A stretch of 64,000 nucleotides of DNA from NCBI GenBank assembly GCA_012845835.1, contig JABAKD010000026.1:9744699-9808698 (forward strand). The letters run 5' to 3'. A program made the translations under genes and the position numbers. Each line of letters begins with the position of its first letter. The stretch's first letter is position 1. The notes under the pieces are model-generated. The model worked only from the letters and a program-made list of their open reading frames with translations, did no database searches and had not been told where the DNA came from. The DNA comes from Undaria pinnatifida. Lineage: Eukaryota > Sar > Phaeophyceae > Laminariales > Alariaceae. This document shows, piece by piece, positions 4,301-64,000 of the stretch.

Positions 4301-4304
4301 TTAT

Positions 4305-6530
4305 AAAAACTAAAATACACTTCAGCTGTGAGATCGAAGATTTTGTCGAAACTCATCTTTGCAAGCTGTGTGTGATACTCCGATCGCGCGTATTACGGAT
4401 TGTGTGTCCTCATTAAGGATCTAGGTCGGCGACTCCCCTTGGAACTACAGCGTAGCTATCAGGGTCAACGGGGTGATGTTAGTCAGTCCGTGCGCGGACA
4501 CTTTAAAACCCGTTTTTGAAGGGGGACAAAATCTGACAGCTGTAGAAAGAAAGGCATCAGTTTATTATAAAAATTAAAATACACTCCAGCTGTGAGATCG
4601 AAGATTTCGTCGAAACTCATCTTTGCAAGTTGTGTGTGATACTCCGATCGCGCGCATTACGAGTTGTGTGTCCTCATTAAGGATATAGGTCGGCGACTCC
4701 CCTTACAGCTACAGTGTAGCTATCAGGGTCAACAGGATGATTTTAGTCAGTCTGTGCGCGGAAACTATAAAACCCGTTTCTGAGGGGGACAAAATCTGAC
4801 AGCTGTGAAGGGAAAGCGGGGGCCTGGTTTTGATCAAAAGCGAGCGGGTTTGGAGGGGGGCGGGGGGTGGGGGGTTGGGAAAGCGGCAATTTGTGCATGT
4901 AAGCTATAAATCATTTCGAGAGGATAAATCTGACTGTTTTGGCACCAGTATATTATTGGGGGCGGGGGGGGGGGGGGTTGGGGCGGGGGGGGGGGGGGGC
5001 GGGGGGGGGGGGGGGGGGGGGGGCAGCTCAATTTGTGCCTGGAAACTATACATTATTTCGAGGGGATAAATGTGACATTTTTGGAAATAATTCATCAGTT
5101 TATCATGTATATCCTGGGGTAAGTCGTACAATCAGTGAGGTGGAGTGTTCGAGGGGGTGGGGTTGGGATGGGTTGGGGGGGGAGGGTGGGGGGTGGGGGC
5201 GGGGGGGGGGCGGGGGCGGGGGGGGGGAGGGGGGGGGTGGGGGGGGGGAAGGGCTTTAGGTGAGGGGTTTGTTATACGTGTGGTGCTAGGTCTAGGCGAA
5301 GGTGCGGGTGATGGGGAAGAAGGGGGCGTTCGAGGCGGGGGGGAAGGGGGGGGGGGGGGGGGGGAACACAGCGGCATGGATGGCTCTCGAAAGATAATGA
5401 GGTGATATCCTGTGCGTGAAGTGTTTATTAATGTGGCGGATTTCGATATTTGGTGGGGCGTTTGAGTAAGGGAGAGCAAGAGGGGGGGGGAGGGGGAGAT
5501 TTTTTAGGAGGTTTAGGTCACAAATAATATTGAAATACACTTCGGCTGTGAGATCAAAGATATGTATCAGCTTGTTATACGCGTGGTGCTAGGTCTAGGC
5601 GATCGTGCAGGTGGTCGGGAAAGAGGGGGCGTTGGAGGGGGGGGGGGGGGGGGGACACAGCGGCATGGATGGCTCTCGAAAGATAATGAGGTGATATCCT
5701 GTGCGTGAAGTGTTTATTAATGTGGCGGATTTTGATATTTGGTGGGGCGTTTGAGTAAGGGAGAGCAAGAGGGGGGGGGGGGATTTTTAGGAGGTTTAGG
5801 TCACAAATAATATTCAAATACACTTCGGCTGTGAGATCAAAGATATGTAGCAGCTTGTTATACGCGTGGTGCTAGGTCTAGGCGATCGTGTAGGTGGTCG
5901 GAAAAGAGGGGGCGTTGGATGGGGGGGGGGGGGGGGGGGGGGGGGGGGATATAATTGAAAACTACGTCATGGATGGTCAGAAAGATAATGACGTGATATC
6001 AACTGCGTATAGGTGTTTATTACTCAGGCCGATTTTGATTGTGAGTGGGGCGTTTGGACAGACTAGGCGGGAGGTGGGGGGGGGATCGGGGGACGGAGGG
6101 GCGGGGGGGGGAAAGGGTTGGGGTTTGTTATGAAGAAGAGGTCAGTGGAGGGGGAGGGGAGAGGGGGGGGGGGGGGGGCGGCGGGCGGGACATTTCAATA
6201 TGTGCGCGGAAACTATAAATTCTTAAAGGGGACAAACCTGACGATTGAAGCAATAAGACATCCCTTTATATCATCTGGCTTTTAATGTTTACTATTCTTG
6301 AAGGTTTGATGTTAGATGCAGCATGCAATCCAGTGTTTAAGTGTAGTAAATAACGTGTTAAATCTTCATAATTTGTTGTTGTATGATACATGGACCGAAA
6401 GCTAGCATATTTTATAGAATATTTGTAGGTACCATTATTTTCTGACATCGCTAATTATAAGAAAGAGATACGTATTGTCAAATGCAACAGGCGAGGTGAT
6501 GTGGTCATGCACTGTTTGTCACCATCATCA
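4305..6530 (+). repeat. G-tract composite repeat, plus-oriented copy with doubled head
   Basis: Two heads lie in tandem (4305-4550, truncated, and 4556 onward). Each begins with a TATAAAAA-type word followed by CAGCTGTGAGATCGAAGATT. Then come successive modules ending in long G runs, with uninterrupted G runs of more than ten bases near 4965, 5000, 5200, 5350, 5640 and 5920. The 3' part (about 6245-6530) is the G-poor tail module with GTTTGATGTTAGATG and GGTGATGTGGTCATGCA words, as at 23,040-23,430. Confidence 0.85.
5271..6130 (+). repeat. Tandem sub-units, about 290 bp, inside the composite repeat
   Basis: GTGGTGCTAGGTCTAGGCGA recurs near 5278, 5582 and 5866, and the whole intervening module (G run, GGATGGCTC, AAAGATAATGA, GTGTTTATTA, GGCGGATTT) is repeated with it. 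The first two units are nearly identical apart from G-run length; the third is more diverged. This suggests local amplification after insertion. Confidence 0.8.
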
Positions 6531-6537
6531 TACAGTC

Positions 6538-6665
6538 ACCAGTTTTATGAAGTGAATCCTGTGATCCTGTAAGTCGAATAACCTGTGAGGGGAGGGCGGA
6601 GTTTTTAAGGACGTGAGCGCCTGGGTTTGATCAAGAGGGAGCAGGGTGGGGGTGGCGCGGGACGC
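6538..6665 (+). repeat. Composite-repeat fragment
   Basis: A truncated module with the words GTGAATCCTGT, AAGTCGAATAACC, GGGGAGGGCGGAGTTTTTAA and GGGTTTGATCAA, in the same order as in full copies. It has no head and no long G run. Confidence 0.7.
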
Positions 6666-7074
6666 TTTGTATAGTTGCAGCGATTTACCTCCGATGTCTG
6701 TGTGCCTGTGTGTGTCTGAGCATCGGCGCTCGCCCCTCAAACAACAACCAACCCAACCAACCCTAGCCGACTTCAACCAACCCGGCCGCTACAGACGCCC
6801 CTATTCATGACATCCATCTACATCTGACCACGTCTAAAACCCCTTTAAATATGTAGAGCTTGCTCGTGATATGCTCGATTCGCACGGCCTGGTTGGTCGG
6901 GGGGGAGGGGTGTTCTTCACGAACAAGACTGGTATTTCCACTCATCCACCGAACAAACACACATCTCCTACCACACCATCATCAGAGTCGTTGACCACTA
7001 CCACCACTGTCCATCACCAACACCCAACCACCACCGTCGCTACCACCTCGGACTCCGTACACACTCCTGCCGAA

Positions 7075-7132
7075 GTGGTGGTGGTCGTGGTGGTGGTGGT
7101 GGTGGTGGTGGTGGTGGTGGTGGTGGTGGTGG
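7075..7132 (+). repeat. (GTG)n microsatellite
   Basis: Near-perfect GTG trinucleotide run with one GTC interruption. It makes valine-only and histidine-only frames on the two strands, which explains the open frames across it; I do not regard these as genes. Upstream (6950-7070) is a related CCA/ACC-rich stretch. Confidence 0.9.
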
Positions 7133-7770
7133 AGGGGCTCGTACGTTTGCACATTTATATTCATCATAGAAACAATGTTTTTTTTTAGATCAGTGCAAAA
7201 AGGCACCGCACGCAACAGTAGCGAGGAGGATTTTGTTATCACGGGGGGGAGGGGGGGGCACCCGACTGGCTATTGCGTGTCAACCAGAGCGCGTACCAAA
7301 TAGCGGGCTGAGTCACTTGAGGCGACGAGAACGAAATCATGTGCGAACGAGCGGGAGGAGTGAGCAAAGGCGATGAACGGCAGATCAGCACAAAAACAAG
7401 CTGCGAGGTCGTAACCCTAGCATCATCATCGTCGTACGATATGTAACAGGGCACTGTACGAGAAGAAATCGCACCTGGTACGAGGTTGTACCAGCAATAT
7501 AAAGGGTTTTCCCTCGCATGAGGAAAAAAAGCACTGTATGTGCACGCAACGGGCTCGTAGCAGGAGGTAATACGCACTATGTAGGGTACGTATCATCTCG
7601 TTGCTGCATACGTATCAACTACTCTGTTGCACGTGGTGTTATTTTTCGAGACCATTCCATTGCGTTGCTAACATTTCTGATTTCGAGACCATGATAAATT
7701 CAACCATGTTCCGAAACACGTTGAAAAGAGAGTCGCTTCGAAAAAGATAACATGTGTTAAATTGTTTACT
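7133..7770. other. No recognisable feature
   Basis: Unique-looking sequence with a short G run at 7244-7258. A minus-strand open frame of about 110 codons (7239-7577) has no recognisable domain or coding signature, so I leave it uncalled. Confidence 0.4.
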
Positions 7771-7774
7771 ACCA

Positions 7775-8480
7775 GGTACATCAAAAGAAGCGCCGTCCCT
7801 ATCACCCAATAACCCCCCTCGCCCCCTCCTTTTTACCCCGCTCCCTCTCGTTAAAACGCCCAACCTAATATCGAAATCCGCCAGAGTCATGAACACTTTC
7901 ACGCGGTTGAAGTCACGACATTTTCTATCTAGCCATCCTCGTCGTAGCTCCAATTCACCCCCCCACCCACCCCTCCGAACACTACGCCCTCTCTTCACTG
8001 GTTGTACGACTTACAGGATATACATGATAAACTGGTGTATTCCTTCCACAACCGTCAGATTTGTCCCCTTAAAGGATTTATTTATGGATTCTGCCCACAC
8101 AATGAGTTCCTCCGCCCGTTCTACCCCCCCTGCTCCCTCTTGTTCAAACCCAGGCCCCCACGCTTTTAAAAACTCCACCCTCCCCTCACCGGTTCTACCA
8201 TTGCAGGATACACTTGATAAACTGATGCACTTCCTTCCACAGCTGCCAGATTTTGTCCCCCGCAAAAACGGGTTTTATAGTTTCCGAGCACAGACTGACT
8301 AACATCACCCTGTTTACCCTGGTAAACTACACCGTAGCTGCATAGGGAGTCGCCGACCTATATCCGTAATGAGGACACACACCCCGCAATTCGCGCGATT
8401 GGAGTATTACACACAGCTTGCTAGGATGAGTTTCGACAAACTCTTCGATCTCACACCTGCTGTGTTTTATTATTTTTGTA
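7775..8480 (-). repeat. G-tract composite repeat, minus-oriented copy
   Basis: C-rich modules (7805-8170) are followed by the conserved head on the right (GGAGTCGCCGACCTATATCC at about 8346, then GAGTTTCGACAAACTCTTCGA at 8428). The head ends in a T-rich, TATA-like complement. Homopolymer tracts are short here. Confidence 0.8.
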
Positions 8481-9240
8481 ATATGTAAAGGTATTGGACC
8501 GGAACACTGAATGTCCCTTGCAGGTCTGCCAATTCAGCAGGTCCTCGGAGAGTACTCTCTTTCTTAGCCTTGGGAGAGACGTAGCTTCTTCATATTCCAC
8601 CAGAGCCCCGAATGATGTCTGAGAGCCGCGGCGCACGCCTCGGTTTCATTTTTTATTTGCCCTTAATAGAAACGCGAATATATCATACGAAAACGGCCAA
8701 TCACCTATCAAATCAGACAAGTTCAGGCCTTCCAAGGCCGTACCTTAGCACTAGCCCACCCTGATGAGCCGCATGTGCAGAAGTATGAGAGATTCGGGGA
8801 AACTCCGGTTCTACGAACTAGACCACGAGTCGAAGATGCCGCTCCTCAAAACCCATTCCCACATCTCTAACGGCCTGGCAATGGAGCCAGAAATATACGG
8901 AGAAAAGCAGTTGACAGAACGTGGACCTTGCCATCAAGCAAATCACTAATAATCAAAAACCTGCCGCATACCACCGATGTGGCTGGGGGGGGGGGGGTGA
9001 AAGGGCCCTACAGTAAACCAACCACAAAAACGGTGCCATGGCGAGGCGAGTCGTCGTCGATATGTCGATATGGAGGGGAAAACAGGCGCAAATACAAGGA
9101 AGAAGTAATACCACAAACCTCCCGCGGGCCATCGGCATGGCGGGGGGTTAGACGAGGAAACGACAAATAGCTGCAATGGAAGGTGGCATGACCTACAGCT
9201 CCGCGAGAGAGGAAAGTTTTAGCCAAAAACAAGTTGAAGA
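8481..9240. other. Unassigned, possibly flanking retroelement sequence
   Basis: Short open frames on both strands, none with a recognisable domain. A G run lies at 8984-8996. The stretch adjoins the 3' side of the minus-strand gypsy element, so part may be its untranslated end or a degraded LTR, but no second LTR copy is visible. Confidence 0.35.
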
Positions 9241-9249
9241 ATCACAACA

Positions 9250-11790
9250 CACAGAAGAATATTAGACAACACAAAGGTCATATATAGCTTTGTACGGCGT
9301 TATGCGCGAAAAGGGTGCCCTCTGGGCTGAGGAGGGCGCCGGCAGGGCGAAATCGGACAAACACGAAAAACCAGCAATCCCGCGCCTCAGCCAGCGGCAT
9401 GAACACCCGGACCATGGTCCGGCACAGGCCGGGGGAGGTGCTGGCAGGACTGAGAAAAAAACAAGGTTAGAACCGCCCCACACCAAACAAAAATACGCTC
9501 AAAACACCACAAACAACCCAAACGCAAACACTCCAAACCTAGTAACCCAGAAAAATAAATGGAGAAATATCGAGAGGCGGCGATGTCTTGAAAGTTACTG
9601 GCCACGGTCGCGCCCAGAGATTCATCTACATTACATGGAATTCCCCGAGTAAACGCGCTGGCGATGTGAACTTGCCGGCACCAAGAGCCTCGTACGGTTC
9701 CTGCCGAAATCGTGAACCGCGCCGTGGGAAGTGGAAGTTTAATCGGCCCCGGGTCGTCCAGAAAGCGGACCAGGCATACTTTGTCCTTGGTTGTGCTCGT
9801 GCTGACTTTTCCAAGCCACCATAACCCATGGTCTTCTTTGTACTAAACGTGGGCTCCCTTATGAAGCACCGTGTCGTGGTAGCGGTGGAGCCAATCGGTG
9901 CGGGTAGCACAAACGTTACTCGGTGCTAGGAAACGCTCCCCGTTGTTGCGGAGAGCTCGCGCTGTGCCGCCCCTCTACGCATTCGGCGGAATAAGTGGTT
10001 GATTTGGCGGTGCTGGACCGGCGTGCCGGCCCAATAACCCAAAACATGGGGACGGGAGAGATGGACGTCTATTTCTCGCTCCCAGGCACGTTTAGAGAGT
10101 CCCGCCCATTACGTCTTATAGCACCGCGATGACGCCACCTCGCCCCCGGACCGACTGATGGCCGGTGGGCTGCTCCACTTCCAGCCGTTGGAGGGGGGTC
10201 GAAACATGGTCTTGAGTGACGTAGTACGGTGGGGGCGTCTTGGAAAAGTTGTTGAGAACATACTGTAATAACCCCGCCGGTAGGTGTTTGGGCCCGTCCC
10301 CGCTGTCGTGGGGGTTGGCGCAGAGCTTGCAGTGTTCAATTGCCACACGCCGACGAGCGTCCGAACCCGGTAGGTCGGAGGGGGATCCAAATAGAGGAGG
10401 TTACTCCCGATAGTTACTCCCCATTGGCGAGCTGTCCGGGGTCTCGGCGGTGGAACAGGGGCCGACAGCCAGGATCTTGTATGGGCCCGTCCAGTTAAGC
10501 TCGAGTTCGGCCTTGAGCACCTCAGCGTCCGTGTTCGCCTTCACACCCTGGCGGGTGGTGGAGGCAGAGTTGTACACCCATGCCGAACCACCCACAGCAA
10601 GGTTAGGTGCCGGACGCAGCCCGTGAAGCCCAACCACCCACATCAAGAGTAGGTGCCGGACGCAGCCTGTTCCTGAGGGCGGAGTTTCTGCTGCTAATAC
10701 GGAAAATGGTGAGGGCGGGGTGTGCACGAACAGTGTAATTTGCTCGCTTTTTTCGATAGGTCGCCATATCCCAATAGGCCACGTGGTCGCGGTACAAACT
10801 TTGGTGCCCCGCAACGCCGGTCCGGTCGAAAACTGTCACAGGGAGACGTGGGAGTCTGCCCATGTCGACCGCAATGGGCGCCAGGCTCGTCTCCGCCCGG
10901 ACGGAAGTGGTGTCAGCGAATTCGACGTGAGGAAGATGCAAGTCGCAGTCGTCTTGTCGCTTGTTGACGACCAAACCCAGCATTTGGGACACAGTGTCGT
11001 TCACCCGCTCAACGCCCCCGTTACAGTTCGGATGATAGGAACTTGAAGCAAGCGTTCGCGCGCCCAACAACTGATATACAGCTTGTGAAAGCTAGGAGCA
11101 GAACTGCAGAATGTTGTCCGAGAGTATGGTGCACGGGCACCCAACAACGTGTCACCAGGATATCAGCTGTACCCTCCGCGGTGAACTCAGCGACGGTGAC
11201 GGGGGACATGTCGGCCCGACGATTGAAGCGATCGGTGAACAGCGGGATGTAGATGCGGGCTCGTGGAATGATCGGAGGGGGGGCGAAGTAGTCAACAATG
11301 ACGGCGATATCTGGACCTTCCGGTAGAGGCATTGAGATGATTGGCCAACGGAGAGTTAGCCGTAGGGTTTCCCGCGATTCGCACTTCAAGCAGTGGCGAA
11401 GTCACCACCGGGTGCACACACGCATGCTAATCCACCAATAAAACAGCTCTAGCATTGGCAACGTGCGCATTGGGCCAAGGTGGCAAGAGGCCGTTGAATG
11501 ACAATATTACATGGTCCAAGGGCGCATAAGCAGGGGGACGCACATGCGAGCGGGCTCGACGTTTAGCGAGCAAGCATCTCGCCCCACAGAGTTGGGTTTG
11601 TCAGACCTTGTCAGCGGAGGTGTCGGGTTACGGACGAGTAGCACGATGTCGTCGTTGGTTGTATGTAGTCGACCCATACCCGCCAGCTCCTGGATGTCTG
11701 AATGGAAGGCACGCTTGTACGAGGAGTAGCATGCGAAAAGGACATGTGGCAGGACCGACGGCCGGCCGATAGAGATGTAACGCATCGTGG
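9250..11790 (-). pseudogene. Ty3/gypsy pol pseudogene 1: integrase plus chromodomain-like C-terminus
   Basis: Fragments of a retrotransposon polyprotein read right to left in shifting minus frames. In order: a pre-integrase segment (11,785-11,507); an HHCC zinc-binding block (about 11,510-11,386; residues CHSTASCHLG and CLKC visible); the integrase core beginning IVDYF (about 11,300), with TDRFNRRADM and the SSYHPNCNGGVERVN block carrying the conserved glutamate (about 11,040); a GPY/F-type segment LNWTGPYKILAVGP (about 10,500); and a chromodomain-like segment near 10,215-10,050 (GRGGVIAVL, then WAGLSKRAWERE in another frame). A final small domain (DWLHRYHDTV, GLWWLGK, VRFLDDPGP) lies at about 9,900-9,640. 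At least five frame changes and several stops show it is dead; the region that should hold the second integrase aspartate is scrambled. No RT or LTR is found with it. The family call is firm, the exact ends are not. Confidence 0.85.
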
Positions 11791-36330: not shown

Positions 36331-36599
36331 ATTTTGCGGTGGCATACTCTCGAGCGTTAGTTTCTTTGCTGTACCTGTTACTTTTTTACCTGTTCGTTTG
36401 GTTTCTTGCCCGGCCTTTTTATTGCTTTTTGTTTCTGCTCGTTTTGCCAGATGGAAATTCATTTTTTTAGTGTGGATTCACCTAAAACGTGACAAACGTT
36501 ATCGACGATATCCAACAACTTCGCGACACAAACTACCGACGGCAAAACGGTTCGTGACAAACAACTCCCAAACCATGGAATCATGATATTTTCATGTAA

Positions 36600-38325
36600 C
36601 AGAATCTCGAGACAAAACCAAGGAGGTAGAGCCGTCTCTTCGGCCTTTGGCCCTGGCTTTAGCATGGCCGCTGACACTCCAGGCAGCCTCTGCTTTAGGC
36701 GTGAACGAGTGCGGTTGGTTCGCAGCGAACTCTCCCGCTGTGCTCGTTTCTATGTGGCCATTGTCCACGCCATTTTATGTCACCTCCCTTCTGTTTCGAG
36801 CTCGTCGTCGTGCCGTCGAGGTACGAGGTAACCCTTACGTGCTGGGTGAGAACAGCAGTATGTACGACGAGCATGAACGCCAACTGACGACATTGGCAAA
36901 GACACAACATCAGGTGCAGCAGCAGTAGCGGAAGGGCGAAACTTCTAGCACATGCTGCATCAACTAGTAGCAACCAGAACCCCAGCAGATAGCTCAAAGT
37001 GCAGTACGAGTGCAGTTGGCAAGTTTAGTCGTACACGCATCACTCTGTCCAATATATGACAAAATCTCGAGACAAAACCAAGCAGGTAGAGCCGTTTCTT
37101 CGGCCTTTGGCCCTGGCTTTAGCATGGCCGCTGACACTCCAGGCAGCCTCTGCTGTAGGCATGAACGAGTGCGGTTGATTCGCAGCGAACTATCACGCTG
37201 TGCTCGCTTCAATGTGGCCATCGTCCATGCCATTTCATGTCACCTCCTTTCTGTTTCGAGCTCGTCGTCGTGCCGTCGAGGTACGAGGAAACCCGTACGT
37301 ACTGGGTGAGAACAGCAGTATGTACGACGAGCATGAACGCCAACTGACAACATTGGCAAGGACACAACATCAGGTGCAGCAGCAGCAGCCGAAGGGCGAA
37401 ACTTCTAGCACATGCTGCATCAACTCGTAGCAACCAGAACCCCAGCAGATAGCTCAAAGTGCAGTACGAGTGCAGTTGGCAAGTTTAGTCGTACACGCAT
37501 CACTCTGTCCAATAGTCTATATATAACAGCATCTCGAGACAAAACCAAGCAGGTAGAGCCGTTTCTTCGGCCTTTGGCCCTGGCTTTAGCACGGCCGCTG
37601 ACACTCCAGGCAGCCTCTGCTTTAGGCGTGAACGAGTGCGGTTGATTCGCAGCGAACTCTCCCGCTGTGCTCGTTTCTATGTGGCCATTGTCCACATTAT
37701 TTTATGTCACCTCCCTTCTGTTTCGAGCTCGTCGTCGTGCCGTCGAGGTACGAGGTAACCCTTACGTGCTGGGTGAGAACAGCAGTATGTACGACGAGCA
37801 TGAACGCCAACTGACGACATTGGCAAAGACACAACATCAGGTGCAGCAGCAGTAGCGGAAGGGCGAAACTTCTAGCACATGCTGCATCAACTAGTAGCAA
37901 CCAGAACCCCAGCAGATAGCTCAAAGTGCAGTACGAGTGCAGTTGGCAAGTTTAGTCGTACACGCATCACTCTGTCCAATATATGACAAAATCTCGAGAC
38001 AAAACCAAGCAGGTAGAGCCGTTTTTTCGGCCTTTGGCCCTGGCTTTAGCACGGCCGCTGACACTCCAGGCAGCCTCTGCTTTAGGCGTGAACGAGTGCG
38101 GTTGATTCGCAGCGAACTATCCCGCTATGCTCGCTTCTATGTGGCCATTGTCCATGCCATTTCATGTCATCTCCTGTTCTGTTTCGAGCTCGTCGTCGTA
38201 CGGTTGAGGTACGAGGAAACCCGTACGTACTGGGTGAGAACAGCAGAATGTACGACGAGCGTGACCGCCAATTGACGACATTGGCAAGGACAAAACAGCA
38301 GGTGTAGCAGCAGTGCGAGTGCCGT
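36600..38325 (-). repeat. 460-bp satellite, 3.7 tandem units, minus orientation
   Basis: ATCTCGAGACAAAACCAAG recurs at 36,604, 37,063, 37,531 and 37,992 (periods 459, 468, 461). Units are highly similar; the fourth ends at about 38,325. The first and third units share variants (e.g. CTCTCCCGCTGTGCTCG and the second-last block AGCAGCAGTAGCGG) against the second, hinting at amplification in dimers. Runs of TATAT-like junction sequence vary between units. Confidence 0.9.
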
Positions 38326-55120: not shown

Positions 55121-55929
55121 TAATTAACTCGAAACCGAGGTTAACCATCGTTACGATCTACGACGGCTACAGAGCCCCACTGACTTGAGCGCTCTTTCTT
55201 AAATGTCGTAATCAAGCAAATCTTGAACACACTTGTTAATATCGGCTTCAGTGCGTGGATTGGCTCGATACGGACGACCGCTCACAGGTTTTGTATAATC
55301 GGGTAGAGTCAATGTTGCTTCAGCAATAGTACACTTGCTGAGTTCTGCCCGAGACAAAGATAAGACAGGAAGATACTTGGCACAGACATGTACAATTTCT
55401 GAATGTTGTTGCAATGGTAAAGGTAAAATGAACAAAAGCTTTAAATAAGGTTGCAGCGATTTCGGCACTTGCAGCTGCGACTTTCTGTCAGTGTTATTGG
55501 TAATGATTCTACAGCATGTACGTGTGACTGAGCAGGGAACACCACAGCATTTCGACAAAAAACCTAGTTCTAATCCTACGTGTATGGCAATAGACTCGGA
55601 AGATGGGTTAGCTATTTGAATAGCGACGGGGCCAATTATCACCATCCACGTGGCTACAGTACAAGCTAATTTAAATTGCCTAAATTCAACGGGATAATTT
55701 TTGCGCAACATCTCGTTTTCTGAGAGTACGCGCCGTTCAATGACTACTTCAGTACCGTGAGACGGTTTTACATCAGTAAATATAGTACTAACGGCTGCAT
55801 ATTGAGGGCGTAAATTATTACGGTGACGCGATTTTACAGCGGGAATTTCAGCATCTTTGTGCACTGCTGCAACGATAATATGCGACGCAGTGGGTGGGGT
55901 GCGATGTGAACGAGTATCAGTCGACCTAT
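55121..55929 (-). pseudogene. Gypsy 2 polyprotein segment between protease and RT
   Basis: A long minus-strand open segment ends at 55,199 with TLPDYTKPVSGRPYRANP and ADINKCVQDLLDYDI, the block that precedes the RT fingers in Ty3/gypsy polyproteins; the frame shifts there and continues as an RT fingers block to about 55,121. Upstream it reaches the target-site duplication at 55,930-55,937 and is then cut by the DNA transposon. The open frame runs on into transposon sequence (to 56,212), but that upstream part is an accident of the junction. Confidence 0.82.
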
Positions 55930-55937
55930 GGATAGCT
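55930..55937. other. Target-site duplication, left (GGATAGCT)
   Basis: Exact match to 63,373-63,380, immediately outside the left terminal inverted repeat. Confidence 0.95.
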
Positions 55938-55962
55938 GGCTCGACCCCCATGGTCTTACCTG
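55938..55962 (+). repeat. Left terminal inverted repeat
   Basis: 25 bp starting GGCTCGACCCCCATGG and ending CTTACCTG; exact inverse of 63,348-63,372. Confidence 0.95.
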
Positions 55963-55970
55963 CCCACCCA

Positions 55971-56058
55971 TAGTACAGGCCAATCAGAAGGCTCCATTTA
56001 GGTCTTTTTTCTGGTACACAGCCCTTCCCCATAGTACACCGTAGTACAGGCCAATCAG
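55971..56058 (+). promoter_or_regulatory. Subterminal direct repeats with CCAAT boxes
   Basis: TAGTACAGGCCAATCAG occurs twice, at 55,971-55,987 and 56,042-56,058, 71 bp apart in the same orientation, upstream of the gene. Such repeats may be transposase-binding sites, promoter CCAAT elements, or both. Further TAGTAC words follow at 56,091 and 56,120. Confidence 0.55.
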
Positions 56059-56188
56059 CGAGCGACACGGGGGTTGTGCGCGACGCAACTCTGGTAGTAC
56101 ACGTAGTAGTGCTGCTGTAGTACTGCTGTGGTGGGCTCTTCGGAAGCGGAGCCCCAGCGGCGGCGGCGTACCTCAAAAGCTCAAAAAC

Positions 56189-56812
56189 ATGAGGCAAATA
56201 CATGTTGTCCACGCCTGCCGTAGATTGGTCTTTGTGGCGCTGCTGCTATTCGCCCGGGCTGGAATTCAGCGTGTGGTCGCTCCTCCTGCCCCTGTCGGAC
56301 GGCCGGCAGGAAAGAAGAATCGAGTGGGTGCGGGCAAACCAGGACCTCTATCCCAGGCCGACAAGAGACGCAAGATCATGGAGACGAAACGGCATGATAG
56401 CCGGTGGAAACGGTGTTCGGGGGTTGGAGGAGCAGGGCAGGGTTACTCCGCCGGGGGCAACAGCAGTGCTGGGCTACGTCGTTACTCGCCTGGAGGGGAT
56501 ACTGGAGGTAGCAGCGGCGGAGGTGGCGACAGCAGTAGCAACAGCCACAGCAACAGCAACAGCGGCGGCGGCGGCAGCGGCAGCGGGAGCGGCAGCAGCA
56601 CCGCGATTCTGCCCACACCGGCATCCAGCAGCAGCAACAGCATAGGCGGGCAACCTTCTCCCTTGCCGGTGAGAAAAATGGATAAATTGCTCTGCTACTG
56701 CGAGGAACAGAGTATTGGTGACACTACTGCTGTTGGCAACATGTGCGCACAAGTAGTCGTGAGGTGTGTTGCTGTAGTGTTGCCCGTGCCGCATTCCCAA
56801 TGTTTGCTGTGA
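56189..56812 (+). CDS. Exonuclease-transposase gene, candidate first exon (low-complexity basic region)
   Basis: An open frame with an Arg/Lys segment (GRPAGKKNRV, QADKRRKIMETKRHDSRWKR), followed by Gly/Ser/Asn runs of a CAG-type repeat (about 56,500-56,640) and a more ordinary end (KMDKLLCYCEEQSIGD). Basic and low-complexity N-termini are common in transposases, consistent with DNA binding or nuclear import. The start codon is uncertain: the ATG at 56,189 and one at 56,202 in another frame are both open. The splice donor to the next exon was not fixed. Confidence 0.45.
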   Translation: MRQIHVVHACRRLVFVALLLFARAGIQRVVAPPAPVGRPAGKKNRVGAGKPGPLSQADKRRKIMETKRHDSRWKRCSGVGGAGQGYSAGGNSSAGLRRYSPGGDTGGSSGGGGDSSSNSHSNSNSGGGGSGSGSGSSTAILPTPASSSSNSIGGQPSPLPVRKMDKLLCYCEEQSIGDTTAVGNMCAQVVVRCVAVVLPVPHSQCLL

Positions 56813-56985
56813 GGCGTCACCTGTTTGGGTTATCTTAAGTTCGCCGCAGAGGGAGAAACTGCTGTAGCTGCGATGCTCGCGGTGTACTGGATAAAAGAAG
56901 GCACTAATGGTGTGTTTTTTCGAGAGGGGAGGTAGACTCTACGAGTAAAAGTTCGAAGCATGTTGTGCTGTAGGCAAGTGGTGGT

Positions 56986-57486
56986 GTGTCAGGAGACCCA
57001 CGTACGTGTGGCAGAACCAGCCCGATGCCCGCGTTCAGACCCGTCAGTTGTTTCAATTGCTCAATTCTGCACCTGGCCCTCCATACGCGTCAACAAAATA
57101 TGCCGGTGCAGTCCTCGGGTCAGAGCAAGTTCCTGGCGCAGATCAAGGAAAAGATTTCGGGGAGCGCCCTAAATCACGTCATCGGGAAGTATCCTTTCGA
57201 CGACCTGTGGGTTTACCCTCCAAATCTGACGATGCTCAAGACCTTGGACTTGGAAGATCATCGTCTTTGTTCTGTGTTCGTGTGGATCCCTGAGTTCACG
57301 TTTCCTGCTGCATTCCCGGAGGGACGGCCGACTTGTCCGCGCTGCAAAACGACGTCTCGAGTGATTGCGAAAGGATTCACGCAGAAGGAATCCCGACGAG
57401 CTATTCTGCGGAACTCCTTCTGCGATCTCCTCGGGTATTTTTACCACTGCCATGGCTGCAAGAGCAACACCAAGGGCAAGGAGAAG
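56986..57486 (+). CDS. Exon with Cys4 zinc domain (DUF6729-like)
   Basis: The translation of 57,100-57,486 has GKYPFDDLWVYPPNLTML, then CPRC (57,337-57,348) and, about 35 residues later, CHGC within GYFYHCHGCKSN. The two CxxC pairs should bind zinc. This block, with FVWIPE and ESRRAILRNS between, matches my recollection of the DUF6729 family, which accompanies exonuclease and transposase-like proteins in eukaryotes. The exon ends in phase 0 at AAG|GTAAGA (57,486/57,487). The 5' boundary is uncertain; a plausible acceptor is GGGTCAG at about 57,121, and the ATG at 56,986 merely opens the frame. Confidence 0.7.
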
Positions 57487-57657
57487 GTAAGACTGGAATA
57501 AAATAGGCGGTCTCGTCGCTGTTTACGCTGGTGGATTCACACGAAAGAACGACCCTTCACAATAGCAGTGGCATTGTTGTCGTGCCACAGAACATCCCAT
57601 TAGCGAGGACCTTGGATGCTACTGACGTGGACTCTGTTTCTTGTGTTTCCGCGTCAG

Positions 57658-58089
57658 GGTTCTACCGTTCCTGAGAGCTTCTCGAGCCGGGATGCTGGAG
57701 TTTTGTCGCAGCTTCCTCTATTCGTGCGGGAGAGCTTTACTTGCGTACTGACTCGCAAGTCTGCTAATCACACGGACGTACTGGAAGAAATCACCGATAA
57801 TTTGGTGCACGCCAAAGGCTTCGCGGCGTCGCGCGCCGCATTGGAGCAGGCGCACCTGGAGGAAGTCCACGCGAGGGAGCTCAAGTACTACAACATGCTT
57901 CTGTGGCGGAAGCAGAACGTGCTTTTACAGCCGATCACAGCAGTCAGGGGATTTGGGTCTTTCGGTGATCCCGACGGATACAATGGCTTTGTGCCTTCGG
58001 AATACTATCTGTCATCGGTTTGGTGCGATGTGATGCAGAACAGGCCCGTTGCAAAGCTCGGCAAGCTGGTGCAAGGAGTGGAAGGCGAG
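57658..58089 (+). CDS. Linker exon of the exonuclease-transposase
   Basis: Acceptor CGTCAG at 57,652-57,657, donor GAG|GTGAGG at 58,089/58,090; exactly 144 codons, phase 0 at both ends. It reads SFSSRDAGVLSQLPLFVRE, a KSANHTDVLEEITDNL helix and HARELKYYNMLLWRKQ, then ends YYLSSVWCDVMQNR. Such helical linkers between the zinc domain and the catalytic core are typical of transposases, but no named domain is recognised. Confidence 0.75.
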
Positions 58090-58331
58090 GTGAGGGTGCT
58101 TGTAGAAGTTGCAACGGTAGCGACGGAGTCAGCTGAGAGATTTTGGTCGTCAGACCCTTGTCCAAAAGGTAGGGATTACGTGACAGCACATTCCACTATA
58201 TATGTCGTCACCCCAAGCGGTACATTCGATTACGGCGTGAGCGCTGTCAGTCATGGAGGCCCTGTTCCCGCCTGTTACTCACGTAGTACTCCTTTGACGC
58301 AAATATTTTGGTTAAACCCTGTGATTTCCAG

Positions 58332-58508
58332 GAACGCTGGTCTCGGGAGTTGTTTTGCCATCTGCGCCAACAGAGCATCGACGGAAAAGTGCTGAAGATG
58401 AACGGCTCTCACAAGCATCTCAAGCTTGTGCGCGTTTTCGACTCCGGTGCTGCGGGTGGCACGAAGCCTGTTCACTGCATTGTCACGTTCTTCAACGAAT
58501 TCGAGCAG
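58332..58508 (+). CDS. Transposase core exon, first block
   Basis: 59 codons, phase 0 at both ends (TTCCAG acceptor at 58,331; CAG|GTTCGA donor at 58,508). VLKMNGSHKHLKLVRVF aligns in position with the sDHtFKv-type first catalytic block of related transposases, but the expected aspartate appears to be replaced (GSH), so this copy may lack the first catalytic acid. The alignment is by eye. Confidence 0.65.
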
Positions 58509-58761
58509 GTTCGATGCGAGTGGTTGATAAGGGCTGAGATTCAATTTCAATACGAGGTTTATCTGAGTGGTCCATTTTATTTTTCGTATCAATGTAGAGA
58601 ACGGACTCTTGAGTATCCCTTTACACCGTTGTCCCTGTTGACTGGACCCGTGTTCCCGCTCCGGCGGATGATGACCACTGTCTGCACGATTCGTTGAGTA
58701 GCAGGTTGGACATTGTTGTGCATTTTGCCTCACGTTCGTGGTCGTCTTCTCTTGTCTACAG

Positions 58762-59528
58762 GTTGTGTTTCAGAAGGCCTTGCAGTCGGCCTCTCTCAGG
58801 GAACTCAAGGCGGACGTCAAACTGTTGTTTGCAACACGATACACGGGAAGAGGGTTTCAGTTGCCAACGGTTTTGTACACTGACATGTGCTGCAAAGACA
58901 GGGCGTTAATGGTGGAGATCTTTCGAGAGATGCGAGATGAGGGGCACGATTTTTCTGTCGATGATGATGATGTGCCGACTTCCTCTGACGGTCCGATATT
59001 TCAGCTTCCTCTCGATGTACGGCAAGTCGGCTGCATTCACGCAAGCAGAGACACGAAGCTTGTCAGGGCCGGGGTTGACAAGCTCCGGCAGGAGGCCAGG
59101 GTTAGCGGCCGTGTTCTTGGTCTAGACATCGAGTGGGAGGTATCTCGTGCTGGTGCCCCTCCCAATCCACCCGCCACGATCCAGTTGGCTACAGGGAAGG
59201 TAGTGGTTATCTTTCATGTCTTGCATGGTCAACGTACTCCTCCCGACAAACTGCCGCAGTCGTTAGCGTGCTTGTTGAAGGATGCTGGTCTCGCCAAGAC
59301 GGGTGTCGGAATCAAGGGTGATTGCACTCGGCTTCAGCGGTTCTTTGGTGTGAAAGTACGCAATGTAGTTGATCTACCAAGACAGGCGCTGCAACGCAAG
59401 GTGAATGTGGGCCGAAGGCGGAGCCTCGCGGATCTGTGCCTTCATCTCCTGGGACAACGTTTGCAGAAGGACCAGCACCTGAGACTCTCCCGCTGGAACG
59501 TGGCGGAGCTCGGGGAGAAGCAGAGGGG
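58762..59528 (+). CDS. Exon with second transposase block and WRN-type exonuclease
   Basis: Acceptor TCTACAG at 58,761, donor at 59,528/59,529 (GTGAGC), phase 2 at its end. It begins VVFQKALQSASLRELKADV and has FQLPTVLYTDMCCKDR, the usual second-acid block (D in YTDMCC). After an acidic linker (SVDDDD) come the exonuclease motifs: GLDIEWE (Exo I, D and E; about 59,122) and GVGIKGDCTRL (Exo II, D; about 59,317), with NVVDLP and SLADLCLHLLGQ between II and III. Exo III falls on the next exon. This is the fold of WRN and RNase D 3'-5' exonucleases, which use two metal ions to remove nucleotides. Confidence 0.85.
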
Positions 59529-59721
59529 GTGAGCTGCGTTTGAAACACATTGAAGCATTGGCTGTAGTCCAATCCTCGCGTACTGCTGTTCCTTCGTGTA
59601 CGTTGTCCACTTGACCATTGCGCACGTGGGTGTTGTTGTGGTGCAGAGAAAGCATACGTCGGAGGTGTTAAATGTCACCGTCGTTCCCTGCCTCGTCCTC
59701 CTTGTTTTCTCCTTGCCGAAG

Positions 59722-59960
59722 GTATGCTGCACGCGATGCATACGCATCAAACGTCTTGTACGGGCGCATTTCGGAGCTTCTGTTCCGATTTTCAGGGAAT
59801 CGGAGGAGAGTTGCACCCCGGGGATAGTGTTCGTCTCTACACTCGGGGCGGAGATGTGTGCGTGGGAGAAGGCTCCATCGTCGAGTACGGAAAGGAGACA
59901 TGGGGTTCAACAGGCATCTTCCTCGCCCCTCGACGTGCTACCCGTGGCCTTACTCGACGG
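59722..59960 (+). CDS. Exon with exonuclease motif III and beta-rich domain (frameshifted)
   Basis: Acceptor CCGAAG at 59,721 restores the frame: GYAARDAYASNVLYGR supplies the DEDDy tyrosine and last aspartate (YAARD). The frame then runs into a stop near 59,826, while the overlapping frame reads GELHPGDSVRLYTRGGD and GSIVEYGKETWGSTG, which continues the expected protein. One base has been gained or lost between about 59,750 and 59,800. A 40-bp intron could also explain it, but other introns here are 170-250 bp. Confidence 0.78.
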
Positions 59961-59963
59961 TGA

Positions 59964-60481
59964 GTCGTGCGGCTGTCAAAGGTGCTTGTCCCCCTCGCAA
60001 GCACCTTGTATCCCGAAAAGACCGATGCACCACGGACCCAGCCGACCACGCAGGTGGGAGGCCGGTTAGGTGAAATTCTGCTGTGGGACGCAGATCGCAT
60101 GCGGAAAACAGTAGGCATGACACCCTCTCCGGCTGCAGGTGCGGGTCTTGGCGGCTCCCCGACTGATGGTGGAGGAGCCGCGTCCTCAACGGCAGGAAGT
60201 TCGGGTGCGGCTGTCACGGGTTTGGCTAGGTTTGTGACTCCGTCTGAGCCGTTCTTCGCTGGAAAACTTGCTGGCGTCGAAGCTCTGAGCGAATCTGCGT
60301 CGTCACTTGCTAAAAATGCGAGAGTTGGCAAAGTGGGACGGACAGAAACAGAGGTGGAGCGCAGCGAAACGGAGCGGGGTGTGTAGTCGAGGTGAAGCTT
60401 GACCAGCCCATGGAGGCCGAAGACCATACCGTTGCGGAAGCCGGCCACGATGGCTCAGGTGAAGCGGAAAGCATTCTTGAG
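59964..60481 (+). pseudogene. Continuation after an in-frame TGA
   Basis: After TGA at 59,961-59,963 the same frame continues VRLSKVLVPLASTLYPEK and LGEILLWDADRMRK, then a Gly/Ala/Ser-rich linker to 60,386. A shorter frame (60,392-60,481) ends GSGEAESILE at a GTGAGC donor (60,482). Whether the TGA is a mutation or lies in an unrecognised intron cannot be told by eye; GTGAGT at 59,960 also resembles a donor. Confidence 0.6.
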
Positions 60482-60666
60482 GTGAGCAAAGGTTGGCTGT
60501 CGGTTGTGCCCATCAGTATTTTAGACACCTGGCACGGATCGCAGAGGGGTGTATTACCCTTGGGCATGGCGTACGATTTGTTGCGCCGTTTTTTTTCTAA
60601 AAAACTTGCACAGTTCGGAAATCGAAGCCCTGCGTTCGCGCTCTGTGATCTGAATAACAAAAATAG

Positions 60667-60990
60667 TTTCGTTCTCGTGTACTCCATCGGAAACCGCCTT
60701 TGCTACGGATGGGCCGGCGGCGTCTCAAACTGGATCTTTTTCACGCCACGCAGCGGCTGAGCAAACTTTTCCTCAAGAGCCACGGTGCGTGTGGGGCGTA
60801 CATGGCGCGTCTTAGAGATGCGTTGTTCATGGTCCACTCGGAGGATCTGGCGGCCGTGGAAGCAGCGCTGCGTCTATTGGGAAAGACTCCTGCAGAGATC
60901 GAGGAAAAAAGAAAACCGACTGGGCGTACGTTCTTCAGAGGTGCCGCAGGTGCGACAAGTTGTGGGACGCGTTCTAAAAATGTGTAAATG
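60667..60990 (+). pseudogene. Second transposase block, LKLDLFHATQRL
   Basis: After a likely acceptor (AAAATAG at 60,666) the frame reads RRLKLDLFHATQRLSKLFL, then YMARLRDALFMVHSEDLAAV and LRLLGKTPAEIEEK. LDLFH-type motifs carry an acidic residue in related transposases, so this may be the third catalytic position, placed after the exonuclease. The frame then shifts (about 60,915) towards EVPQVRQVVGRVLKM in another frame. Confidence 0.65.
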
Positions 60991-61198
60991 TCGTTTCGTT
61001 CTCAAAAGTGTAACAGGTTTCTTTCCTAATTTTGAGCGGGTCAATTTCGTTGACCTCAGAGTTTCGACTTGTTAAAAACCAAGTGAGATTGACGTGGATG
61101 CTGACAGTGAAAAACAAAATTGCACCTTGCCCCCCAATGACGTCTGCGAACCCGACAGGGTGATTCCTCAACCCGACTAGCTAGCCAATCGCTTCGAT

Positions 61199-61652
61199 TT
61201 GGTTTACCGCATCTACGGCCACCTCCTCCACGATAAAATCAAGCAAACTTTGGTCCGAGCAGAAGCATGGGAGGCCGTAAAGCGACTCAGAGTTCACATC
61301 AAAGCCGGTTGCTTGAGTGACCGACGCCAAAAACAATCAACCTTTGGTCCGAGCAGAAGCATGGGAGGCCGTAAAGCGACTCAGAATTCACATCAAAGGC
61401 GGTTGCTTGAGTGACCCTCCAGGTGTCGCCCAGTTTATCGAGGCAAGCAAGGATTCCGCGACGGGCTGCTCGCTGGTTCGCTGTGTTCGCGGCACCAATG
61501 ACCTGGAGAGGTATCACTTGCGCATGCGCCTCCTGGCGGCATGGTGTTTTTCACCACTTCTCGCTCATCTCCTGCTCCTCGAGTACAACTACAGGTGGAA
61601 CCTGCGCCAGGCCGTCAACAACCGTGGCCTTGACTCATCTGTTAGGGGGTTA
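61199..61652 (+). pseudogene. Helical transposase block with 94-bp tandem duplication
   Basis: The first frame reads HDKIKQTLVRAEAWEAVKRL and GCLSD, then is thrown out of frame by a duplication. The second copy (from about 61,338) restarts LVRAEAWEAVKRLRIHIKGG and continues CSLVRCVRGTNDLERYHLR, LLAAWCFSPLLAHLLLLEY and NYRWN to a stop at 61,653. RGT.xLE.YH blocks with a following RWN are conserved in many transposases of this kind. 94 is not a multiple of three, so the duplication breaks the gene. Confidence 0.75.
61244..61416 (+). repeat. 94-bp tandem duplication
   Basis: TTTGGTCCGAGCAGAAGCAT at 61,249 and 61,343; units (61,244-61,322 and 61,338-61,416) differ at three bases, so the duplication is fairly recent. 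Confidence 0.92.
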
Positions 61653-62394
61653 TAGGATCAGCCGGTGGTCGAAGCCGTTCAGGTTGGATGTCCATAGAAT
61701 GAGCGCGTTGTTGCTTGAAGGGCTCGGGTGACAATTTGTGTCGGGGTTTAATCGTCAAGTTTTTCCCCGCAGCCATAATATTCATTCGACGCTGCATAAT
61801 CAGTAACGATTCACTATCGCCGGCTCCTTGTCTTGACAGAGGATGACGTCCATGCTTTTCGGAAAGGCGAAGTACTCAAGCTGGGTGCCGACGAACCCGT
61901 ATAGCGATACGGGGGAACGCAGCGGGTCTGTCCAGAGTGTTCCAGAAGGGGGTTGAGGGGTAGAATCGCTTGATGATTCCGAGTTGGATGGGTAGGTAAA
62001 TGACGGCGAGGCCGTCCCGCTTCCGGACCTGACGCAGTCGGCGGCTGCCCTCGCAATCATGCAGGGAGTGCAGGTGCCCGCCATGCCGGTCAGTACCGCT
62101 TACGAGATCACTAAAGTTAATGAAATATGGCTGACATTTGCTCGTGCGAGTGGGTCGAAGTCTTTCCCTGACATCGATGCTTTCGCGATTTGAGTGGAAC
62201 AAGGTATGTATCTGCCACAGAAGAAGGCTGCATCCTTGAAGTCCTTCCGGAAAAAGTGAGCAAGATTTAAGAACCCGGTTCGATTTTTCATTCCTGCACG
62301 CTCCGTCCTTGTTCCAGCGTTGTACGCAAGCGAATGACAACAGCCATTTTGCGCATCCTATCTCGAACGTGGCAGGCACGGCGAGAACATCAAC
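61653..62394 (+). pseudogene. Degraded region before the C-terminal exon
   Basis: The plus frame at about 62,005-62,200 reads VPLPDLTQSAAALAIMQGV and VSTAYEITKVNEIWLTFAR, coding-like and in the expected place. Upstream (SGSVQSVPEGG, then stops at about 61,957 and 61,990) and downstream (stops near 62,190 and 62,258) it is interrupted. Stops may be decay or missed introns. Confidence 0.5.
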
Positions 62395-62868
62395 ATGAGG
62401 GACACTATGCGGCCCGCTCAAACCGTGGGAGCGTCCGTCGGGAGCCAGCTTCCTGCGCCCATGGATGTGCAAGACGCTGCAGCCTCGCCGGCAGAGCCCT
62501 GGCTGCCGTCACCGCCAGATGGCTTTTCGTTTCCCGCGCAGATGGCGGAGGTGGGAGGAGCCAGAAGTTCATCGCAAGCTGCCGGAGCTGCTGGTGCTGA
62601 TGTTAGCGCTGTGTCAGGTGCTTCTTCGGCGGCGGGTGCTAAGCGGCGGAACCAACACTGCCGTACGTGCGGGCACAAGATGCGAGTCGGAGCCTTCAAG
62701 CGTCACCACAACCAGTTCTTGTCATCTCCAGGTCCCGTTTGCACCGTGCCAGAGAGTCGACGCCGCGTCAAAGTCAACCCGATTGCCACGAGGCCCATCC
62801 GGATGTTCGGTAGCGAGTGTCACTGCGTCGGGGATGATGCTTACCCGGGGGGGTGCAGCTCGAAGTAG
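62395..62868 (+). CDS. C-terminal exon with CxxC zinc finger
   Basis: 157 codons to TAG at 62,866. An Ala/Ser/Pro-rich first half is followed by AKRRNQHCRTCGHKMRVG, then FKRHHNQFLSSPGPVCTVP: CxxC, histidines and a final cysteine that would form a zinc finger. A terminal cysteine finger of this layout is frequent in large eukaryotic transposases. Confidence 0.6.
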   Translation: MRDTMRPAQTVGASVGSQLPAPMDVQDAAASPAEPWLPSPPDGFSFPAQMAEVGGARSSSQAAGAAGADVSAVSGASSAAGAKRRNQHCRTCGHKMRVGAFKRHHNQFLSSPGPVCTVPESRRRVKVNPIATRPIRMFGSECHCVGDDAYPGGCSSK

Positions 62869-63347
62869 GTGGACCATAAGTCTACGTCAATGACAGGGTT
62901 CGCGTATGTTAGCGAGAGCACGTACCTCGAGGGCATGGTTGTTTCGGGCAGATCATTATCGTGCCCACAGGGTTGACGCGTTGTGCAGGCATGCGTTTAT
63001 GGATGTAGCTTGAGGGAGCATGTAGTGGCATAATCTCGGTTGTACTCGGGGCTCTACTTTTGTATTCTTGAAAGAAAAAATACATTGACACATATTTTTT
63101 TTTCGTTCGGTCTTGGCTCTCCTATCGGCCACTCTATTCCACGTCGATCGTTCTACGTGGCGTTCCATGGGGTAGACGACTTCAAGCGCTTCAATCCGAT
63201 ACCCTGTTTGCCGACGTACTCCCATTCAATTAAAGTTATGCAACATTTACTGCCTGTAGTTGTGATCGTTTACACATGCCGTTGAATAAACAATTCGGCC
63301 AAAAAAGATTTTTCGCGCTTCGCGCGAAAAAAATGTAACTAACGGGT
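62869..63347. other. 3' non-coding part of the transposon
   Basis: AT-rich, with candidate poly-A signals (AATAAAC at 63,285; ATTAAAG at 63,229). No gene. Confidence 0.5.
63309..63331 (+). other. Subterminal perfect hairpin
   Basis: TTTTTCGCGC, loop TTC, GCGCGAAAAA, 17 bp inside the right terminal inverted repeat. It could be a terminator, a cruciform, or a transposase site. Confidence 0.7.
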
Positions 63348-63372
63348 CAGGTAAGACCATGGGGGTCGAGCC
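63348..63372 (-). repeat. Right terminal inverted repeat
   Basis: 25 bp, perfect inverse of 55,938-55,962. Confidence 0.95.
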
Positions 63373-63380
63373 GGATAGCT
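63373..63380. other. Target-site duplication, right (GGATAGCT)
   Basis: Exact copy of 55,930-55,937. Confidence 0.95.
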
Positions 63381-63750
63381 GGGATGGTTACAAAACTGGA
63401 AGAAAATTAAAACTTTGATTTTTTCCAGTCCGGTGCAGCACCAAAACAAGGCACAACACCATTTTCGAGTATTGCATAGTCTGGCCGAAGTGATGGTATA
63501 ACGAGGGCATCAATACGGTGAGATATATCACCCAACGTAATCGACAACTCAAAAAACCCCTTAACATCGAGCGGTAGACCATTGTTCGTGCTCAGGGACA
63601 TGTACGATGGGGGAACAGGCTTAATAGCAGCCTACATAGAGTCGGGTGAACGTTCAAAAATAATAGCGAAAAGCGCGCAACGTCGCTTGCTGTATTTACG
63701 GCCAACTCTGGGACAGATAGACCGTTAATACTTCCAGGGATACGTGTTAT
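63381..63750 (-). pseudogene. Gypsy 2 aspartic protease segment
   Basis: Minus-strand frames give RIPGSINGLSVPELAVNTAS (about 63,740-63,685), aligning with the retropepsin DTG region, and then in another frame GLPLDVKGFFELSITLGD and DALVIPSLRPDYAILENG (63,575-63,450). The active-site triad appears as NTA instead of DTG or DSG, so the aspartate is lost, and there is at least one frameshift. It is the upstream continuation of the 55.1-55.9 kb segment. Confidence 0.75.
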
Positions 63751-64000
63751 TTGACATAAAAAGAGAGAGACAACTGTTTATTATTATCATCAAGGTATCC
63801 TCTGCTTCTTCCTGCTGTACTACGGTATGTCGGTCTACTTTCCGATTCTACTGCTGCACAACCATGGACCGCACAACGTTTCGATTTTGTGCACAGTTCA
63901 ACTAGCAGCATCTCTGTTCTGTCCAATATGGAGAGCAGAAGCTGAACACTTACAGATAATCAAAACCCTCAAATCAGACGGATTCGTATCAAGAACCGGC

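Follow-up and report, generated by a model that had tools for sequence, protein, structure and literature searches.

Dada elements form a superfamily of DNA transposons described as inserting in small RNA genes. According to the parts of the original description drawn on here, they encode a DDE transposase with a DxxH motif and with CCCC and CCHC zinc fingers, their genes contain introns except in Perkinsus, and their lengths range from 4,666 to 10,979 base pairs (bp) (Kojima and Jurka 2013, PMC3706591). As far as that paper and a survey of 2022 were drawn on, published Dada elements have no terminal inverted repeats, make target-site duplications of 6-7 bp and have small RNA genes as their targets (PMC3706591; PMC8869645). 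All Dada with clearly definable termini are stated to lie in small RNA genes (PMC3706591), and the survey, with more than 120 fish families, gives the same duplication length and the same kind of target (PMC8869645). In the Dada of Laccaria and Ectocarpus a DEDDy exonuclease stands between the second D and the DxxH motif (PMC3706591). Here we describe a transposon in a stretch of 64,000 nucleotides from Undaria pinnatifida (contig JABAKD010000026.1, our C33, positions 9,744,699-9,808,698), referred to as the window. The transposon has exact ends, belongs to a multicopy family with 8-bp duplications at different sites and with recurrent deletion classes, and carries an intron-bearing gene in which the motifs follow the order known from Dada. 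It is very probably a cut-and-paste transposon with a Dada-type DDE transposase and an inserted DEDDy 3'-5' exonuclease, from an untargeted branch with inverted-repeat ends. The family departs from the published description of Dada in three traits.

Ends, duplications and copies in the host genome

The whole transposon occupies 55,938-63,372 (7,435 bp, no strand assigned), as defined by its exact ends and by end-to-end alignment to a second copy, L091. Its terminal inverted repeats, at 55,938-55,962 on the plus strand and 63,348-63,372 on the minus strand, are 25 bp long and identical (GGCTCGACCCCCATGGTCTTACCTG). The target-site duplication GGATAGCT abuts the transposon at both ends (left copy 55,930-55,937, right copy 63,373-63,380, again with no strand assigned). 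The ends and the duplication had been placed correctly to the base in the first-pass annotation, which was made from the letters of the window. Among lengths from 2 to 12 bp, the repeat outside the ends matches at 8 bp alone. With up to three mismatches allowed, the 25-bp end has two matches in the window and none in 100 shuffles, and by chance 64 kb would contain about 2e-6 perfect inverted pairs of 25 bp. Beyond the 25 bp the two ends of the window copy are unrelated, with agreement at 5 of the next 35 bases. The inverted repeat begins with GGCTCGACCCC (55,938-55,948; 63,362-63,372), which differs by one mismatch from the B-box consensus of RNA polymerase III, and 0.9% of 25-mers match it equally well.

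The flanks had been presented in the first-pass annotation as two adjoining parts of a Gypsy polyprotein, and as confirmation of the insertion. The part about the insertion stands: when the flanks are joined on a single GGATAGCT, a minus-strand frame crosses the junction and meets a single stop, some 12 codons inside the right flank. The assignment to a Gypsy polyprotein with protease and reverse transcriptase is by eye only. By eye, the left flank (55,202-55,929, minus strand) is a polyprotein remnant from the reverse transcriptase side of a retroelement, and the right flank (63,381-63,800, minus strand, in the frame of the left flank after joining) is one from the protease side. The open reading frame at 55,202-56,245, which contains some sequence of the transposon, has no Pfam match listed up to an expect value (E) of 0.1. 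The arrangement supports a single DNA transposon inserted in older retroelement-like sequence.

The host genome, searched over 511,146,479 bases in 68 contigs, contains 171 ends with at most three mismatches (82 forward and 89 reverse), against none in a reversed control. The existence of further copies with these ends, on which the first-pass annotation had made its reading depend, is thereby established. One hundred of the 171 ends are listed, all of them exact. Forward-reverse neighbours at most 7.8 kb apart among these 100 make up 31 pairs, window included, and the perfect ends in the pairs follow from this selection. The other 30 pairs were taken with 100-bp flanks; the remaining 38 ends of the list, which have no partner nearby, were left out. 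Exact 8-bp duplications occur in 14 of the 31 pairs, against a chance expectation of about 0.0005, and all 14 are different. Two more pairs, L112 and L114, have exact duplications of 6 bp; the remaining 15 have no exact repeat of at least 6 bp, and 8 of these show 2-3 mismatches in 8. Obvious candidate causes of the missing duplications are decay and recombination among copies. L092 and L093 have common flanks and are 99.7% identical, and L107 and L108 have common flanks and are 100% identical. Each of these two couples is a segmental duplication rather than two separate insertions, and the 31 pairs therefore represent at most 29 insertions.

Full-length copies account for two of the 31 pairs, the window copy and L091. 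L091 is 7,718 bp long, is flanked by the duplication GAAATTGG and aligns end to end with the window transposon, at 92.5% and 91.4% in two long pieces; over the final 291 columns the figure is 86.6%. The other 29 pairs are derivatives of 1.1-2.2 kb, and every one consists of the two ends of the transposon around one of three internal deletions. In coordinates of the transposon the approximate limits of the deletions are 193/6513 (n = 15), 405/6622 (n = 6) and 538/6657 (n = 8); a few short copies have shifted limits or inner duplications, and L100 holds an insertion. Since the three classes recur, a few founder deletions must have been amplified, by transposition or by duplication. The short copies that have duplications of their own point to movement in trans. 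In L105 (G000:C28:8603548-8604949) an additional copy of the first 21 bp of the inverted repeat lies in the left flank (bases 71-100), 5 bp outside the left end and with CGAT motifs on both sides, which would fit a second element formerly present there or two that were joined.

Transposase gene and protein architecture

The encoded motifs appear in the order CCCC finger, first D, second D, WRN-like DEDDy exonuclease, DxxH, E and CCHC finger. The exonuclease matches the Pfam model DNA_pol_A_exo1 (8e-14). It also matches that of human WRN (2.9e-21), in an alignment that pairs the D, E, D and YxxxD residues of the two. The superfamily had been left unnamed in the first-pass annotation, and the architecture is of the Dada type. 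The catalytic triad is placed at YTD, DLFH and RGTN-LE, by motif rather than by alignment to Dada. At the first catalytic position all 10 other gene copies have Asp, where the window copy has Asn; the second catalytic Asp is present in all 10. Of the exonuclease residues, the first D and the E are found in all 10 of these copies, the second D in 9 of 10 and YxxxD in the three that cover it. DxxH and the third catalytic E were checked outside the window copy in L091. The N-terminal part resembles DUF6729 below the Pfam threshold (1.2e-4; 22.2 bits, where 27 are required), a domain of which the literature search found no mention. A structure model from the single sequence has a mean predicted local distance difference test (pLDDT) score of 33.9 and gives no usable fold. 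Pfam and PDB matches to a sperm microtubule protein are weak, lie below cut-off and were judged spurious.

All parts of the gene lie on the plus strand. Exon 1 (57,025-57,486, with a putative start codon) encodes the beginning of the DUF6729-like region and the CCCC finger, C-x2-C-x34-C-x2-C (57,334-57,459). The DUF6729-like region goes on in exon 2 (57,658-58,089), and exon 3 (58,332-58,508) contains the first catalytic position, the Asn codon at 58,401-58,403. In exon 4 (58,762-59,528) the second catalytic Asp (58,882-58,884) is followed by the WRN-like exonuclease, with its Asp, Glu and Asp codons at 59,125, 59,131 and 59,320. Exon 5 (59,722-59,795) encodes exonuclease motif III, YAARD, and its end is uncertain, as the frame changes here. 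The four introns are all GT-AG and consistent in phase, and their splice dinucleotides are conserved in L091. Past the frame change the coding sequence continues in fragments: 59,800-59,993, with one in-frame stop near 59,961; 60,709-60,974, with the DxxH motif (DLFH, 60,733-60,744) and a frame change near 60,909; 61,181-61,652, with RGTNDLE, whose Glu (61,506-61,508) is the putative third catalytic residue; and the C-terminal fragment 62,338-62,868 with the CCHC finger (62,659-62,742). The coding region contains, at 61,230-61,416, a two-copy tandem duplication of 94-bp period; of 88 positions compared between the two copies, 5 are different. L091 seems to be without this duplication, to judge by a gap of 94 bases in the alignment. 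Upstream of exon 1 is a low-complexity open reading frame (56,045-56,812) that may be part of the transposase gene; low-complexity coding sequence at 56,512-56,650, rich in CAG and GGC and with repeats of Ser, Asn and Gly, is possibly a 5' exon.

The transposon had been called complete in the first-pass annotation, a description that holds for its ends and fails for its gene, the 3' half of which is broken by frame changes, the in-frame stop and the 94-bp duplication. The window copy, defective also through the Asn at its first catalytic position, is dead or dependent on other copies. Selection on the protein was assessed by comparing each of the 10 other gene copies with the window copy, a shared reference that leaves the comparisons not independent. 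For the DDE part the ratio of nonsynonymous to synonymous substitution rates (dN/dS) lies at 0.32-0.86 in all ten comparisons, with an uncorrected p below 0.05 in four. Over exons 1-4 the window copy and L091 give a dN/dS of 0.46 (p 0.001).

Relation to Dada, target choice and alternative explanations

The element agrees with Dada in the D-D-E residues with DxxH, the placement of the DEDDy exonuclease, both zinc fingers, the introns and a size within 4.7-11 kb. The closest described elements, as far as the original paper was drawn on, are Dada-1_ES, Dada-1_LB and Dada-2_LB, which likewise have introns, CCCC and CCHC fingers and, after the second D and before DxxH, a DEDDy exonuclease (PMC3706591). 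These elements are named without a target gene. In the window family the ends are defined and inverted, and the 8-bp duplications lie at scattered sites. The Dada that target U6, U1, 5S and transfer RNA (tRNA) genes in fish, invertebrates and Perkinsus resemble the window family in the motif order and fingers of the transposase; they differ in their 6-7 bp duplications, their lack of inverted ends and their RNA-gene targets, and the portions of text drawn on do not mention an exonuclease in them (PMC3706591; PMC8869645). In the CCCC finger the x34 and last x2 spacings equal those of Dada-U6_DR, and the first gap is x2 here against x4 there (PMC3706591). The CCHC finger is more loosely spaced: after C-x2-C, H follows at +12/+13 and C at +24 from the second C, compared with +10 and +19 in Dada-U6_DR. 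For Ectocarpus one Dada family with 15 copies, one of them intact, is given in a table entry, the sole mention in the main text of that paper (Genome Biol 2025, PMC12477816); it has the superfamily name in common with the window family, and possibly the host group. No Dada with terminal inverted repeats or with untargeted insertion was found in the portions of literature consulted, namely PMC12477816, PMC12730594, PMC8226300, PMC3985635, PMC4482050, PMC3706591, PMC9587614, PMC4455052 and PMC8869645, with Repbase entries and supplements outside this set.

The course of transposition that we infer from this anatomy, of which the genome displays the footprints alone, would be as follows. The transposase would bind the 25-bp ends, and its D-D-E site would excise the element and join it to target cuts 8 bp apart, where gap filling at the staggered cuts would yield the 8-bp duplication. 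The exonuclease may trim 3' ends exposed during transposition, a role suggested for related elements in the part of the original description drawn on (Kojima and Jurka 2013, PMC3706591). The short derivatives would be mobilised in trans.

In contrast to published Dada, no aiming at small RNA genes is seen in the tests made here. ARAGORN, which detects an E. coli control, found a tRNA in none of the 31 sites after rejoining; the intact loci likewise show none. Rfam gave no match in the window or in the 15 scanned of the 30 other loci, a search that is weak for an RNA gene split by insertion. Apart from a weak palindromic signal, A/T at the two central positions, no sequence is shared by the 14 sites that have exact duplications. 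With both orientations counted, this signal has p 0.004 for the maximum column and p 0.008 for the summed information; oriented by the element, the values are 0.28 and 0.035. The target preference is at most a weak palindromic one, for A/T in the middle of the duplicated 8 bp.

Several results speak against the placement in Dada or against untargeted insertion. Three traits of published Dada, the lack of terminal inverted repeats, the 6-7 bp duplication and the insertion in small RNA genes, were looked for and found to be otherwise here, and for that reason the element is classed as a variant of Dada rather than as a plain member. The membership is founded on architecture and spacing rather than on comparison with a Dada protein sequence, and the core has no transposase model among the Pfam, NCBIfam and PDB matches listed. 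The exonuclease shows no clear constraint, with a dN/dS of 0.34-1.22 and p below 0.05 in one of the ten comparisons. Both full-length copies are disrupted, L091 by indels in exons 2 and 4, and 17 of the 31 pairs are missing an exact 8-bp duplication. The RNA-gene test of the rejoined sites covered tRNA, with small nuclear RNA (snRNA) and 5S genes outside its scope. L101 and L117 lie in one repeat (80% over 120 bp of rejoined flank), where about 11-19 bp separate their insertion points, and shorter similarities link the sites of L101, L114, L116 and L117; some preference for the repeat that hosts L101 and L117 is possible.

The alternative that survives best, though we consider it unlikely, is a superfamily of the C/DxxH kind that is separate and as yet without a name, placed between Dada, P, hAT and MuDR; it would have gained a DEDDy exonuclease independently and would resemble Dada by convergence. 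The ends, the duplication length and the target behaviour, which all depart from published Dada, would suit such an origin, and independent uptake of an exonuclease is known from KolobokD with DEDDh and from ISL2EU with YqaJ in the sources as far as drawn on. KolobokD is itself a C/DxxH transposon with a DnaQ-type exonuclease; its exonuclease is of the DEDDh type, unlike the DEDDy type here, and the Kolobok duplication is TTAA (PMC9587614, in part). Against a separate superfamily, the type of exonuclease and its insertion point agree with Dada, two zinc fingers stand at matching ends with similar spacing, and the original description, in the part drawn on, names Ectocarpus among the carriers (PMC3706591).

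It is very improbable that the element is an ordinary tRNA-targeting Dada that missed, at a Gypsy site mimicking the A box (TAGCT, tRNA nucleotides 8-12, the published hot spot). TAGCT is present in GGATAGCT, and in the published register 14 of 20 bases of the site agree with a tRNA of E. coli (p about 0.007 when 20 registers are allowed for, with 21 E. coli tRNAs compared). A precedent is the single copy of the tRNA-targeting fish Dada-tV that was found in a hAT element, as reported in the portion of the survey drawn on (PMC8869645). In a wider test, however, 18.8% of background stretches were equally good, TAGC or GCTA stands near the duplication in 3 of the 14 exact sites, window included, and none of the 31 rejoined sites contains a tRNA. 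The narrow test is suggestive and the wide one is not, and an A-box target is largely refuted by the 13 other duplications without it.

That the element is a hAT, P, Kolobok or KDZ/Zisupton transposon with a captured exonuclease is scarcely credible: duplications of 8 bp are the norm in hAT and P and have been reported from Zisupton/Dileera in the sources as far as drawn on, but no hAT, P, KDZ or MULE model is among the Pfam matches listed at E up to 10, and Kolobok makes TTAA (PMC9587614, in part) where 14 different 8-mers are found here. The remark in the first-pass annotation that the protein is unlike hAT, P or other common 8-bp families agrees with the Pfam, NCBIfam and PDB matches listed, none of which is a transposase. 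Affiliation with KDZ/Zisupton or Novosib was also followed in the literature and found no support.

With a Dada-type transposase taken as the best explanation, a wider proposal can be made, for which the case falls a little short of balanced. Exonuclease-bearing Dada may be a branch that, like P and hAT, has retained long inverted ends together with 8-bp duplications and targets that are near-random, with strict RNA-gene targeting and the loss of inverted ends derived in other Dada. If this is true, the window family would be the natural outgroup for how a DDE transposase became site-specific. The window family provides a comparison for the evolution of target specificity and for the role of an exonuclease inside a transposase, and it may help show how strict target aiming was gained or lost.

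Distant Dada-type sequences and other repeats

A query of 264 residues matched 105 stretches of the host genome. Eleven of these, window included, are close copies, and many others are distant, at 27-57% identity. In about 1.7 Mb of contig C22 (21.9-23.6 Mb), 36 of the 105 stretches are concentrated. Four loci there (L136-L139) are about 75-85% alike over long pieces. They code for the N-terminal part, and their first catalytic residue is Asp except in L137, which has Asn. Within 6.5 kb they show no exonuclease match, and neither tRNA nor Rfam searches gave a match, although RNA genes split by insertion could escape these searches. Five scans of viral contigs and two of genome contigs gave no viral or prokaryotic relatives, and 51 contigs taken from a motif pattern had no tblastn match at E 0.1. 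Elsewhere in the window, from about 1 to 49,300, repeats that are a few hundred bases long and resemble one another are numerous (1-778 and 4300-4815 are examples), several of which adjoin runs of G or C, and a 460-bp tandem repeat of 3.7 copies at 93% occupies 36,599-38,314.

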